IMG/VR virus record: IMGVR_UViG_3300032084_001184
Span: 1-22,205 of that record
Source: a virus
Reading direction: 5' to 3' (one strand)
DNA: 22,205 nt
Position numbers and translations under genes: made by a program. Below the pieces are notes generated by a model. The model had not been told where the DNA came from. It did not search any database and was given only the letters and a program-made list of their open reading frames with translations. The first letter of the stretch is position 1; each line of letters opens with the position of its first letter. Below are positions 10,538-18,611 of the stretch, one piece after another.

Positions 10538-11623
10538 ATGAATTATAATAGATTTGGAACACCAAGAGCATATATAGATACAATTAACTATGATATTACT
10601 ACAGGATGGAGGGATTTAGACGATATAGTTACAATTCAAAATGATAATTCTACAGCAGTTGTTTTTGATAACGGAACATCTGAAGGAGATATGTTTGACT
10701 TAAAACCTTCTAATTATGCTCAGATTGCTAACACAAATCAAAGTTTTTATATTCAATTTGATACAGGGACAATAAATACTACTATAGCAGAGTCTAATTA
10801 TATTGCTATTTTAAATCATAACTTTAAATCAGCAGATGCTGTGTTTAAGGTTGCCTATTCTTCGACTGCCGATTTCTCTTCTAATGTAACTACGATTACC
10901 ACAACAGCAGGAACAGGGGCAGGGCAACATCAAAAGGTTGTGAATTGTGGAGCTAATATGGGTGGTGGAAATGCTGATTTTCTTGAGCTAGAAAAAAATG
11001 GATGGACTTTACTTACTTGGACAACTCAAGAAACACATAATAGATATATAAGGCTTACAATAAAGGATTCTGATGGTGCAAGTGTTAATTTTGCCACAGA
11101 TGTTTTCATAGGAAGTATAATGATAGGAGAATACATCGACTTTCCACAAACTCCTGAGTTAGATATAAAAACTTCTATAGATTATGGAGGTTTGATTTCC
11201 AAAGAATCATTAGGTGGTAATACTTACACCAGTTCAACTCATTTAGGGCAACCGACTTGGGCTATTACTACTCCTTGGAATTTAAGCACCACTTCAAATC
11301 AGCAAACTTATTCTTTTTTACAAAGACATGGAAGGACTAATCACTCTATAAACTTTAAGTATTTAGCAGACACAGATGTATTTAGTGCTACAGCAGGATT
11401 AGAAAGTACAACTGGGGCAAACTGGCATGATTCAGGGAGTTTACATAATTCTTTTTATAATAAAGTAATTGGGAGCAGATTACCTTTTCTATTTGCTATA
11501 GATGGAGATTCTAGTCATATATCTGATTACGGAATGTTTAGACTTGCAAAAAATGATTTTTCCGTTACTCAAGTAGCTAATCAAGTATATGACCTTAGTC
11601 TCAATTTAACTGAGACTTGGTAA
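10538..11623 (+). CDS. Minor tail protein, possible receptor-binding component
   Basis: A 361-residue beta-rich, Asn/Ser/Thr-rich protein with an AAAGGA ribosome binding site eight bases before ATG 10538. It is the last gene of the rightward block. The first ~200 residues (FYIQFDTGTINTTIAESNYI, NRYIRLTIKDSDGASVNFA, IGSIMIGEYIDF) have the strand order of a galactose-binding-like jelly roll. The C-terminal half (210-361) is a second beta domain. By position it is a tail-tip or fibre-related protein, but no catalytic motif or collagen-like repeat is present. Its last 18 bases overlap the convergent NinB-like gene. Confidence 0.6.
   Translation: MNYNRFGTPRAYIDTINYDITTGWRDLDDIVTIQNDNSTAVVFDNGTSEGDMFDLKPSNYAQIANTNQSFYIQFDTGTINTTIAESNYIAILNHNFKSADAVFKVAYSSTADFSSNVTTITTTAGTGAGQHQKVVNCGANMGGGNADFLELEKNGWTLLTWTTQETHNRYIRLTIKDSDGASVNFATDVFIGSIMIGEYIDFPQTPELDIKTSIDYGGLISKESLGGNTYTSSTHLGQPTWAITTPWNLSTTSNQQTYSFLQRHGRTNHSINFKYLADTDVFSATAGLESTTGANWHDSGSLHNSFYNKVIGSRLPFLFAIDGDSSHISDYGMFRLAKNDFSVTQVANQVYDLSLNLTETW
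11597..11617. terminator. Hairpin at the convergent gene junction, possible bidirectional terminator
   Basis: A perfect 7-bp inverted repeat, AGTCTCA (11597-11603) and TGAGACT (11611-11617), with a 7-base loop. It lies exactly where the rightward tail gene and the leftward NinB-like gene end and overlap. There is no T-run on either side, so it is a weak intrinsic terminator at best. It is the only dyad I see at the meeting point of the two transcription units. Confidence 0.3.
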
Positions 11624-11968
11624 AGATTTAGGGTCAGGTATAACAATGCCCAAGTCAATAGCAGACCATCTTATAATCTGTTCTATTAACTTGGCAAATT
11701 CTTTTGTTGTGAGTGTCTTTGTACTCTCCACCTCGAAGTGATTCTTTAGTGTTGAGTGCATTTCCTGTTCAGTATAACCTAGATCATCGGCAAGTATATT
11801 AACGATCTTCCAATAATAGTTATTTTGCTGAGAGGAACGAACCCCTGTTTCTTTCAACTCTATATAATAATCCCCACTTAACTTGGCAATCGTATTATTA
11901 AACTCTTCTTTATTCTGAAGAGTCATCTTGCCATCTTTAATTAAGCAGGGGAATCGCAATTTGGACAT
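11606..11968 (-). CDS. NinB-like phage recombination-associated protein
   Basis: A 120-residue protein. The central segment YYIELKETGVRSSQQNNYYW (33-52) followed by KIVNILADDLGY matches the layout of lambda NinB (strand, then R-S-x-x-QN-x-x-x-W helix). TKTLTTKEFAKLIEQIIRWS, then AIDLGIVIPDP, corresponds to the C-terminal helix block. NinB proteins are recombination mediators that bind ssDNA. Last gene of the leftward block; overlaps its upstream neighbour by 28 bases and the convergent tail gene by 18. Confidence 0.6.
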   Translation of the reverse strand: MSKLRFPCLIKDGKMTLQNKEEFNNTIAKLSGDYYIELKETGVRSSQQNNYYWKIVNILADDLGYTEQEMHSTLKNHFEVESTKTLTTKEFAKLIEQIIRWSAIDLGIVIPDPKSLPSLS

Positions 11969-13422: not shown

Positions 13423-13779
13423 TCAAAACTTTTTTTTACTTATTTGTTCTAAAAGTCCATCTACATCAAAATCTGAGAATTTAGTCATGCAGTTCTTTCG
13501 TTCTTTTAAATCATCATACCATTGGATGCCACGCTTTTCAATTGCCCATTCCACAAATTCAGCAGGGGTTTTATGGGCAGAGAAAGAGGAGGAGAATACA
13601 TGGCATCCAACACAGAGACAAAAACCATTATCTATATCCCATCGAACTGCTCTAATCGCTCTTGAATAAAAATGATGTGCATTTAACCGATTAGTCTTAT
13701 GGCAGACTTCGCACATCCCATACTCACGAACTTTCTTAGACCAAGCATTGTCGAGTTTTTTAGATAAGGCTTTTTTCAT
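13423..13779 (-). CDS. HNH endonuclease-like protein (NinG-like possibility)
   Basis: A 118-residue protein with the HNH/Zn layout: C23-x-x-C26, L32-N33-A34-H35-H36, D50-N51, C56-x-x-C59-H60, then H69. The HH...N...H core of a beta-beta-alpha metal nuclease and the four structural cysteines are all present. Proteins of this size occur in phage replication-recombination clusters and resemble the HNH part of NinG-type recombination nucleases. It follows the SSB-like gene directly (stop TAA, then ATG with no gap), consistent with a DNA-processing role. A packaging HNH is less likely given this position. Confidence 0.75.
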   Translation of the reverse strand: MKKALSKKLDNAWSKKVREYGMCEVCHKTNRLNAHHFYSRAIRAVRWDIDNGFCLCVGCHVFSSSFSAHKTPAEFVEWAIEKRGIQWYDDLKERKNCMTKFSDFDVDGLLEQISKKKF

Positions 13780-15639: not shown

Positions 15640-15854
15640 ATTAACTCCGAGTTTAACCATTTATCTAAAGCAGTTTCCCATTCTTTGAATGTCGCTTTTC
15701 CTTCTCTATGTTTAATCCATACCTCATCAAACTCTTCTTGGTTTCTTTGAGCCATTTTTCGGATTCCATAGTCCATATTTGTGCCTGCATCTTCAGGCAT
15801 TGCGTATACCTTATCCAAATAGATTTTCTTTAACTTCTTCGAAGTATTCTCCAT
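15636..15854 (-). CDS. Hypothetical protein, 72 residues
   Basis: ATG 15854 is preferred because AGGAG lies eight bases upstream; a GTG nine bases further up (15863) would sit inside that ribosome binding site. The start lies within the last 44 bases of the primase-helicase gene in another frame. The product (MENTSKKLKKIYLDKVYAMP...) is charged and helical with a final WETALDKWLNSELI helix. No family recognised. Confidence 0.6.
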   Translation of the reverse strand: MENTSKKLKKIYLDKVYAMPEDAGTNMDYGIRKMAQRNQEEFDEVWIKHREGKATFKEWETALDKWLNSELI

Positions 15855-17481
15855 ACCTACCACTCCTTATGTCATAGCTTAATTTAGCTTTGTTTGGTTT
15901 ACCATTTTTATACTGAAAACGAATCTTATTTACATGAACACCAACATAATCATGTTCATCATTTTTATGTCTATGAATTGTAATTGCATTGTCACATTTA
16001 TTATACCAGTTGGCACTCCCTGATATGTCGTAAGGCGTTGGCACTAAAGGTTTTCGATTAAGATCGTTCTCCATTTTCTTTGGATGTGCCACAACCCATA
16101 TATGCAATTCATTGATTTTTGCAAAGGCGTTTAACTGAGCAAGAACCCTAGACACATAATTAGTCTCATTCTCTCCATCTCTGAATTTATGTTCCAATGT
16201 ATTCCAAGGATCAATAACAAGTCCATTTAAACCATATCTGTAGGTTAGTATCTTTGCCTGTTCCAGTATATTCTCTATACTAACAGAATCTTCCTGAGTA
16301 CCAATAAACTTGATATGTTCATTCATAACTTTCATACTTGCCCTTGCAGTTTCACTATCCATTTTATCATCACCCCAAAAAGGTTTACCATTAAACTTAC
16401 TAACTAATTTTAATAAATGGTGTTTTACTGGAAAATTTTCTGCTGAAAATATACCAAATTTCCATGAGTGATGTTGTACCATGTTAATCATAAGAGCATC
16501 CATCCATTCAGATTTACCCATATTAGGAACACCAGTAATAACTGTGAGTTCAGATGAACTAACTCTATATGCACCATCTAAAGCAACCCAACCAGTAGAC
16601 AGACCGAGATGTTCAGGTTTTTCAAGTAGATCAATAGCATCATCTTCAATATCGCTAATAGTAACTACACCCTCAATAGGATAAGGATGAGTATTACTAA
16701 CTATATCTAATATACACTCCTCTCCATGCTTAACCAAGACCTCATTCATATCCTTACAATCTTCAGGGTAGGTTACTCGATAACATTTTTCTCTACCAAT
16801 ACGCCTTGATAATTCATCCCTTAGATGATTCCCTGCTCCATCATTATCAGTACATAATATAATCGTCTTAGCGTTCATTAGATGTTCTTCTGCTGATAAT
16901 AGATAACTAAACTTTAGATCACTTGGTTTAGAGTTTGGAGCAGTAGCACCATCAGGAACACTTACAACATTCGTAAATCCTGCCTGAACTAAAGATAAAG
17001 TATCCATCTCACCTTCAGTTATAATAATCGTTTCCATACCTTTCATGTGATCAAACCTATAAAAACATTTCTCAGCATTTTTAGATTGCATAAACTTTTT
17101 ATCTGCTGTTCTTGATTTAATATTAACCACTTCTCCATCTTTATAAAAAGGAAATTGAATCCATCTATTATTATAACCTATCTTCTCGGCATCTACAACA
17201 TTTTGAGATATACCACGATCCTCAAACCATTTATAAACTTGCTCAGGGATGTCGGTTGTAGGTGGATTAGGTTTTATAACTACTTTAGGTTGTGCTATTG
17301 TTTTTACTTTATTCAATGAACCTTTCCACCCACAATGATGACAATGCCATACACCCTCATCTATGTTTACTGATAGACAAGGATCAGAACCCTTTCTTCT
17401 TGTATGTGAACACTTTGGACATTGTGTCTTTTCTTGCCCACTTGTATTTCTTACTGATATTCCATTCTCCTCAAATGTCAT
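15811..17481 (-). CDS. DNA primase-helicase (T7 gp4-type)
   Basis: A 556-residue two-enzyme protein. The N-terminal zinc finger is C21-x-x-C24 and C47-x-x-C50, for template recognition. TOPRIM primase core: E156-G-E-M-D160 (IIITEGEMDTL) and D212-N-D214 (CTDNDGAG). Then a RecA-type helicase domain starting about 290: Walker A GVPNMGKSE (317-325), Walker B LVIDP (421-425), WVVAHPKKM (462-470, with the SF4 H motif) and PYDISGSANW (483-492). Together it makes RNA primers and unwinds DNA at the fork. Length matches T7 gp4 (566). The gene follows the initiator with stop/start overlap. No residues are missing. The matching phage polymerase is outside the window. Confidence 0.92.
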   Translation of the reverse strand: MTFEENGISVRNTSGQEKTQCPKCSHTRRKGSDPCLSVNIDEGVWHCHHCGWKGSLNKVKTIAQPKVVIKPNPPTTDIPEQVYKWFEDRGISQNVVDAEKIGYNNRWIQFPFYKDGEVVNIKSRTADKKFMQSKNAEKCFYRFDHMKGMETIIITEGEMDTLSLVQAGFTNVVSVPDGATAPNSKPSDLKFSYLLSAEEHLMNAKTIILCTDNDGAGNHLRDELSRRIGREKCYRVTYPEDCKDMNEVLVKHGEECILDIVSNTHPYPIEGVVTISDIEDDAIDLLEKPEHLGLSTGWVALDGAYRVSSSELTVITGVPNMGKSEWMDALMINMVQHHSWKFGIFSAENFPVKHHLLKLVSKFNGKPFWGDDKMDSETARASMKVMNEHIKFIGTQEDSVSIENILEQAKILTYRYGLNGLVIDPWNTLEHKFRDGENETNYVSRVLAQLNAFAKINELHIWVVAHPKKMENDLNRKPLVPTPYDISGSANWYNKCDNAITIHRHKNDEHDYVGVHVNKIRFQYKNGKPNKAKLSYDIRSGRYGEYFEEVKENLFG

Positions 17482-18284
17482 TACTTACCCCCTTTATCAA
17501 TGTAACTTGCATACATATTTGTAAACTTTCTTTGACCATTAGGTGCTTTGTCCCGTAATACTCTCAAGGAATAGCATTTAGAAGCCCAAAACGTATCCTT
17601 AACGAGCCAATCTATTACACCCCTAACCTTACCCTCACCCCACTTATCAATCGTTAGTAAATCGAATATTACATTGATACTACCATTAGTTAGGTTTGTA
17701 TCTTTATGCCAATCCGATTTTATAATTTCAGGATAGTTTTTATTTTGAGTGGTATAAAAATTACTAACTATTCTTTTTATAAAAACCAACTGATTATGAT
17801 TGATTGCCTTATTAATAACAACCTTGTTTTTTTGGATACTATAGATATATTGTATATTATTATTACTATGTAATAATGTATCTGATTTCTCAGTACCCTC
17901 AACATCTTTATTAGGCACTACATCACCATCTACTGCATTACCCCCTACTGAGTTTTCAGCATAGGGTACAGGGATGTTATTGTCTACCCCTACTGAAATT
18001 TCGGGTGGGGTAAGCATTATATACCTATTTATGAATTTATTAGAATCTTCTTCATTTTCAATAACAACTTTTATAAGATTAAATCTTCTTAACTTAGTTA
18101 TACAGGAACTAATCGTTGATGCTGAAGAGCCTAAAACCCGAGCAAAAAACGAGTTTTTCTTCTTACAGTAACCTTGTTCTTCTATATTTGCCGTAATCTC
18201 TGAATACACTAATTTAGCAACTGCATTTAAATCGGGGTGATGTCTAATATAAGCAGGAATATAACCCACATGACCAAATCTCAT
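17481..18284 (-). CDS. Replication initiator / replisome organiser-like protein
   Basis: A 267-residue protein. Residues 8-72 (YIPAYIRHHPDLNAVAKLVY, YCKKKNSFFARVLGSSASTI, SSCITKLRRFNLIKVV) form the winged helix-turn-helix common to phage replication initiators of the lambda O/replisome organiser type. A low-complexity linker (about 92-150) follows, then a C-terminal domain (160-260) with VIDWLVKDTFWASKCYSLRV and LRDKAPNGQRKFTNMYASY, typical of replication proteins that recruit the helicase. AGAGG seven bases before ATG 18284. It lies immediately upstream of primase-helicase. The linker-coding DNA carries GC-rich repeats and an AT-rich stretch that may be the origin. Confidence 0.72.
   Translation of the reverse strand: MRFGHVGYIPAYIRHHPDLNAVAKLVYSEITANIEEQGYCKKKNSFFARVLGSSASTISSCITKLRRFNLIKVVIENEEDSNKFINRYIMLTPPEISVGVDNNIPVPYAENSVGGNAVDGDVVPNKDVEGTEKSDTLLHSNNNIQYIYSIQKNKVVINKAINHNQLVFIKRIVSNFYTTQNKNYPEIIKSDWHKDTNLTNGSINVIFDLLTIDKWGEGKVRGVIDWLVKDTFWASKCYSLRVLRDKAPNGQRKFTNMYASYIDKGGK
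17740..17880. other. AT-rich stretch next to the repeat cluster, candidate unwinding element
   Basis: The segment encoding the initiator linker and its end is extremely AT-rich (17821-17880 has 11 G/C in 60 bases). It lies directly beside the GC-rich repeats, on the side further into the gene. In lambda the origin lies inside gene O with iterons followed by an AT-rich region in the same relative order. Functional assignment is by analogy. Confidence 0.35.
17939..18012. repeat. GC-rich repeat cluster in the initiator gene, candidate origin iterons
   Basis: CCCCTACTGA occurs at 17942-17951 and 17987-17996 (45 bp apart), each followed after two differing bases by TTTC. AGGGTAC (17963-17969) has an inverted copy GTACCCT at 17893-17899, and GGGTGGGGTAAG lies at 18003-18014. 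The cluster is about 47% GC by count, against about 18% for the flanking 17821-17880. The repeats also give a repeated peptide (ENSVG/EISVG) in the initiator linker. Confidence 0.45.
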
Positions 18285-18511
18285 TATAAGACCTCTCTAT
18301 GTTTTAAGCCTGATATAGTCTTTGATCCAACATCAGCAATATAATCTTCATCGTATACATCGGTATTAAGATTAATCCTATTATTAATAGTAACATCGAC
18401 TTCATAAATCCCTCTTAATTCATCTTGTCCATTAAAAGTATAAATAGGTAGATTCTGATCTACTGATTCTAGTGCTTCTATAAGTTCATGTACCCTGATT
18501 GTTTTAATCAT
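18284..18511 (-). CDS. Hypothetical protein, 75 residues
   Basis: AAAGGAG seven bases upstream of ATG 18511; the stop overlaps the initiator start (TAATG). The N-terminus IKTIRVHELIEALESVDQNL followed by PIYTF resembles many small phage proteins beginning with a helix HELI..L..VD.. and a strand. No function is known to me. It is the first gene after the structured 100-base gap. Confidence 0.65.
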   Translation of the reverse strand: MIKTIRVHELIEALESVDQNLPIYTFNGQDELRGIYEVDVTINNRINLNTDVYDEDYIADVGSKTISGLKHREVL

Positions 18512-18611
18512 TATTTTCTCCTTTATAAGTGGAGGGGAGAAAAGGAAATAACCCCCCTATGAATCCACTTGTTAATATTTCATCCTTTTAAGGCGTAGTA
18601 AGATAATACAT
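18512..18611 (-). promoter_or_regulatory. 100-base gap with a predicted hairpin before the RBS of the initiator operon segment
   Basis: The largest non-coding gap within the leftward operon. AAGTGGA (18527-18533) pairs with TCCACTT (18564-18570), extended by GGGG (18534-18537) with CCCC (18554-18557) across a bulge. An alternative pairing is TTTTCTCC (18514-18521) with GGAGAAAA (18536-18543), which would include the ribosome binding site. Two exclusive folds, one covering the site, would suit translational control. No clear promoter seen. Confidence 0.35.

Follow-up and report, generated by a model that had tools for sequence, protein, structure and literature searches.

Where does an uncultured marine phage begin to copy its genome, and can that starting point lie within the gene of the protein that initiates copying? 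We analyzed these questions in a stretch of 22,205 bp from viral record IMGVR_UViG_3300032084_001184 (hereafter the window), where a first-pass annotation had suggested that replication may start among repeats and AT-rich DNA inside an initiator gene. That suggestion gains support from sequence conservation beyond coding needs. We conclude that the phage very probably starts replication here, from a theta-type origin embedded in the initiator gene, because the repeats and a melting stretch are kept in 26 divergent relatives despite change in the protein, and because the closest relatives carry a non-coding copy.

The candidate origin lies in the first of two overlapping genes:

17481..18284, minus strand: initiator (replisome-organizer) gene, 267 aa, with a winged-helix N domain, a disordered linker and a helical C domain
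18012..18284, minus strand: codons of the winged-helix DNA-binding domain (residues 1-91), from the AlphaFold2 model and weak fold matches
15811..17481, minus strand: T7-type primase-helicase gene (TOPRIM plus DnaB-like; phrog_239, E 7e-98; Pfam Toprim and DnaB_C)

Profile searches matched the initiator to phrog_270 'replication initiation protein' (E 2.4e-12, residues 8-125). The AlphaFold2 model comprises a winged helix (residues 1-91) and a helical C domain (residues 145-263), separated by a linker (residues 96-142) with pLDDT below 50 that is predicted to be disordered. The winged-helix domain gave weak fold matches (E about 0.03) to the N domains of RepA_N initiators (4pt7, 5kbj, 4pql) and to the DnaD N domain (2v79). 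Pfam returned nothing beyond HTH_36 (E 0.03), with no lambda O family match in the N domain and no RepA_N domain, and the initiator profile found no match by sequence among solved structures. The C domain aligns, over part of its length only, with that of lambda O (hhalign E 3.2e-5, 37 columns, probability 73%). The initiator is nevertheless not called a member of the lambda O family, because its DNA-binding domain fails the Pfam test. No prophage copy of the initiator was found in bacterial genomes, where the primase-helicase has distant relatives only (identity ≤40%). The start of the primase-helicase overlaps the initiator stop (TAATG), and its N-terminal cysteine pattern reads as a zinc-binding part. 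No helicase-loader gene was recognized near the initiator, including between initiator and primase-helicase, and no lambda P-like gene next door.

Other features of the neighborhood were also recorded. A G/C-rich stem-loop at 18524-18570 (AAGTGGATTCATAGGGGGG...CTCCCCTCCACTT), just upstream of a ribosome-binding site, is kept in several relatives with quite different sequence and is possibly a terminator or a translation control element. Between this leader hairpin and the initiator, the window and its relative L001 have a 75-aa reading frame (18284-18511 in the window). It is missing from L002, L003, L004, L008, and L009, in which the initiator comes straight after the hairpin. Two recombination genes, NinB/Orf-like and NinG/Rap-like, lie near the replication module (11606-11968 and 13423-13779), a placement common in lambdoid and flavobacterial phages. 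Rfam families and tRNAs were not detected in the window.

Within the initiator gene, two copies of CCCCTACTGA, at 17942-17951 and 17987-17996, lie 45 bp apart and are the only ones in the window (0.03 expected by chance). AGGGTAC stands at 17963-17969 and the inverted form GTACCCT at 17893-17899. The direct repeats and inverted elements described in the first-pass annotation are thereby confirmed at their coordinates. Each CCCCTACTGA forms the right half of a dyad, TACCC-N(10-22)-GGGTA, a pattern with exactly two occurrences in the 22,205 bp versus 0.02 expected:

17985..18012, minus strand: dyad 1, TACCCCACCCGAAATTTCAGTAGGGGTA (sites 1 and 2), with a dyad centre conserved in 26 relatives
17939..17968, minus strand: dyad 2, TACCCTATGCTGAAAACTCAGTAGGGGGTA (sites 3 and 4), 45 bp from dyad 1, with the same dyad centre
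17876..17900, minus strand: degenerate third unit, GAGGGTACTGAGAAATCAGATACAT, adjoining the AT tract and common to the non-coding distal module of L001, L002, and L004

Since each CCCCTACTGA is half a dyad, the site count is four, and the earlier count of two clear copies was too low. The four G-tract sites (TACCCY / RGGGTA) alternate in orientation at a spacing of 22/23/22 bp, within dyads of 28-30 bp. The third unit was not significant from the window alone. As first described, the repeats and AT features all fall in linker codons, after the winged-helix domain.

Their position in codons raises the possibility that the repeats are a by-product of a linker peptide repeat (T-P-x(5)-G-V every 15 residues) without DNA function, since the 45-bp spacing is an in-frame distance of 15 codons and many relatives show the peptide repeat. 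With the protein held fixed by synonymous-codon shuffles, the 45-bp repeat is marginal in the window sequence alone (P = 0.06), and the case for the repeats therefore rests on relatives. Searches with the initiator and the neighboring primase-helicase yielded 47 distinct homologues; 26 of them, below 85% amino-acid identity to one another, formed the comparison set. Synonymous-codon shuffles, which leave the protein unchanged, served as the null (200 shuffles for the offset-45 test).

The linker protein is highly variable, while the site arrangement is kept by nearly every genome: CC, GG, CC, and GG stand at the four positions, 22, 23, and 22 bp apart, in 25/26, 25/26, 25/26, and 26/26 relatives, and the two units independently give the same dyad centre. 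Similarity at offset 45 summed to 273.5 across the 26 homologues versus 168.1 ± 9.8 after shuffling (maximum 191 in the 200 shuffles). The linker codons held 90 half-sites versus 27.8 ± 4.4 in shuffles, compared with 42 versus 41.6 in the rest of the gene, and the excess of the four sites over the shuffles amounts to about 11-14 sd. Similarity between the two units is higher within a genome (0.61) than between genomes (0.47 ± 0.018), and their spacers change in concert inside each genome. Iteron distance also tracks winged-helix distance with C-domain distance controlled (partial r 0.60, P 0.0005), a correlation possibly inflated because the two are adjacent and hence linked. The repeats thus outlast amino-acid constraint in relatives, a check proposed in the first-pass annotation. 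DNA similarity above protein-preserving shuffles, half-sites in both orientations (a feature for which a peptide repeat offers no explanation), and the predicted disorder of the linker all weigh against a peptide origin. The non-coding copy described below contradicts it. On the shuffles and this copy the peptide-repeat reading was rejected as extremely improbable.

Beyond the sites, A+T reaches 79% over 17740-17890 versus 68% for the whole window, in line with the very AT-rich flank first noted:

17836..17885, minus strand: predicted DNA unwinding element, the least stable 50 bp by nearest-neighbour energy
17859..17877, minus strand: AT palindrome, ATTATTAC-ATA-GTAATAAT; palindromes are kept in relatives

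By nearest-neighbour energy, the predicted unwinding element has the lowest stability of any 50 bp in all 22,205 bp, and in 26/26 homologues the minimum-stability 50 bp of the gene fall at roughly the same relative position. Palindromes in the AT part of the 26 relatives reached a summed score of 210 versus 146.6 ± 6.6 in synonymous shuffles. Their arms change on both sides (ACTAT/ATAGT in L039, ACTGT/ACAGT in L045, GTTATTAT/ATAATAAC in L020), and L019 was the sole relative of the 26 without a clear palindrome at that place. The dyads and palindrome could act as mRNA stem-loops in pausing or translation control, and dyad 2 does fold better than shuffles (z -4.3), as does the AT palindrome (z -2.9). 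However, the palindrome hairpin is weak (-3.7 kcal/mol), the dyads are alike beyond pairing (direct similarity, concerted spacer changes), no Rfam family matches, and the distal copy falls between two converging genes. We regard a role as RNA structure as highly improbable.

The non-coding copy was identified in the closest relatives, among them L001, whose sequence matches that of the window at 98% identity across the 2.9 kb surrounding the initiator:

17840..17939, minus strand: part of the origin with a non-coding copy in the nearest relatives (Smith-Waterman 59-63 versus a null of about 21 ± 3)
L001:1395-1610, L002:4560-4780, L004:4170-4386, L009:2200-2440: second non-coding copies, present also in L118 and L119

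In L001, the junction at 1395-1610, 5.7-5.9 kb upstream, aligns in one orientation with the equivalent of 17840-17939 (Smith-Waterman score 59 versus a shuffled mean of 20.3 ± 3.1, maximum 32 in 500). Scores were 59 in L004 and 63 in L002. The copy is weaker yet significant in L008 and L009, in the same orientation, weak in L003 (29, P 0.016), and was not found at the equivalent place in four more distant relatives. This result applies to the relatives, because the equivalent place falls just past the end of the window, by about 1.5-2 kb if placed as in L001. The copy comprises a dyad, the third unit, and the AT module and lies 5.4-5.9 kb from the initiator on its upstream side, where a small zinc-ribbon-like gene and a terminase-small-subunit-like gene converge with their 3' ends (the latter named from an HTH-like sequence and gene position rather than by profile search). 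The junction has its own dyad, TACCCCACCCTATTTCTCAGCATAGGGGGTA, and lineage-specific letters match between both copies, reading GATACAT in the genomes of the window group and GAGGTACAT in L008/L009. A non-coding copy exists, and the sequence therefore matters as DNA. Because site positions, spacers, and palindrome outlast coding as well, sequence comparison indicates that the conserved object is the DNA itself, beyond what the protein needs.

Another reading is an operator cluster, through which the initiator or another regulator controls transcription of the replication operon and not the start of replication. Dyad sites for a winged-helix protein would fit an operator, and the distal copy is intergenic. 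Yet the sites lie deep in the gene beside a conserved AT palindrome of low stability, in the order seen in the origins of lambda, SPP1, and 80alpha, and the distal copy sits where 3' ends converge instead of at a promoter. Control of transcription instead of replication is thus very unlikely, and a replication origin remains our preferred reading.

Under this origin model, the winged-helix domain would bind the four sites, as one dimer per dyad or as four protomers 22-23 bp apart on nearly one helix face, so that the initiator would bind its own gene. The bound array would then strain and melt the AT tract, and the C-terminal domain, a relative of the lambda O C domain, would pass the opened DNA to the primase-helicase that the phage itself encodes in the next, overlapping gene. 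We infer these steps of binding, melting, and recruitment. Counting against an origin, the AT tract begins about 60 bp past the last strong site, compared with a few bp in lambda. The GC-skew check suggested in the first-pass annotation, applied within the window, spoke neither for nor against an origin here: the skew changes sign near 11.6 kb, where plus-strand tail genes meet minus-strand early genes, with no switch at the candidate origin, and is uninformative because it follows gene orientation.

By analogy with oriR and oriL of SPP1, the distal copy may be a second origin. A fuller model, which we consider possible but doubtful, has two origins of the same module, one in the initiator codons and one at the convergent junction by the terminase-like gene, co-evolving under one initiator. 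The distal one may act in a concatemer switch or in packaging, and the AT palindrome would be a cruciform-forming start site instead of a simple melting tract. Thanks to the duplicated non-coding module, a two-origin model can be put to a direct test. For this uncultured marine phage group, the analysis provides a concrete candidate origin with 26 natural variants of the initiator and its matching sites, a data set on the joint evolution of an origin and its binding protein within shared codons. The loader-free pair of initiator and primase-helicase points to a replicon of two genes, which could be reconstituted in vitro.

Among known systems, the origin of lambda within gene O is a close parallel. 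O dimers bind its iterons, which are inverted repeats (PMC5043065, PMC7466680). When run through the same tests as a positive control, lambda O behaved alike: its repeats exceeded synonymous shuffles (P 0.003), and its least stable 50 bp came directly after them. This bears out the lambda-like order, sites and then AT tract along the coding direction, proposed at the outset. The four annotated lambda iterons (starting at 635, 655, 679, and 702 of L112) are evenly spaced and span 67 bp centre to centre, equal to the span here. Both origins lie in the linker codons of the initiator, use G-tract half-sites (ATCCC...GGGA in lambda), and belong to initiators with related C-terminal domains. In lambda, however, CC and GG lie about 12 bp apart within an iteron, whereas here they lie 22 bp apart within a dyad of alternating single G-tract sites. 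The AT tract here is also the more distant one and contains a conserved palindrome, and a primase-helicase follows the initiator where lambda has its P gene.

Bacteriophage SPP1 combines an origin inside gene 38 (oriL) with oriR about 13 kb away, both with direct repeats and an AT unwinding element (PMC6316719). The arrangement of its replisome organizer (gp38) resembles ours in having one origin in the initiator gene and a second elsewhere, the counterpart here being the candidate second origin of close relatives. SPP1 differs in its gp39 loader and gp40 helicase and in the distance between its origins; the two modules here are 5.4-5.9 kb apart, alongside a fused primase-helicase. Staphylococcus phage 80alpha gp20 is likewise a replication initiation protein with an annotated origin in its gene, and ORF20 is not complementable in trans (PMC5499656). 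It differs in its 30-bp repeats and DnaC-like loader, and the initiator profile gave no significant match to gp20. In RepA_N plasmid initiators (pSK41 Rep), a winged-helix N domain binds four boxes mid-gene, followed by a dispensable linker and a replisome-binding C domain (PMC5703833). The weak N-domain fold match links our initiator to this group, which differs in being plasmid-borne, in its host DnaG partner, and in its boxes; our initiator has no Pfam RepA_N match.

A Flavobacterium elemovirus also encodes a replication protein followed by a TOPRIM primase-helicase, with intragenic repeats beyond synonymous shuffles but another repeat and linker; no published description of its origin was found. 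Distant initiators with such intragenic repeats were observed at L103:1450-2319, L111:3249-3977, L087:4566-5300, and L064:2367-2999, with repeat lengths of 23 bp in Lactobacillus phage PL-1, 20 bp in the Flavobacterium elemovirus, and 22-23 bp in two uncultured phages. These repeats are apparently unannotated origins. The kind of origin proposed here is already known from lambda, SPP1, 80alpha, and RepA_N plasmids, whereas this phage group is set apart by its alternating sites, its loader-free neighbor gene, and its duplicated module.
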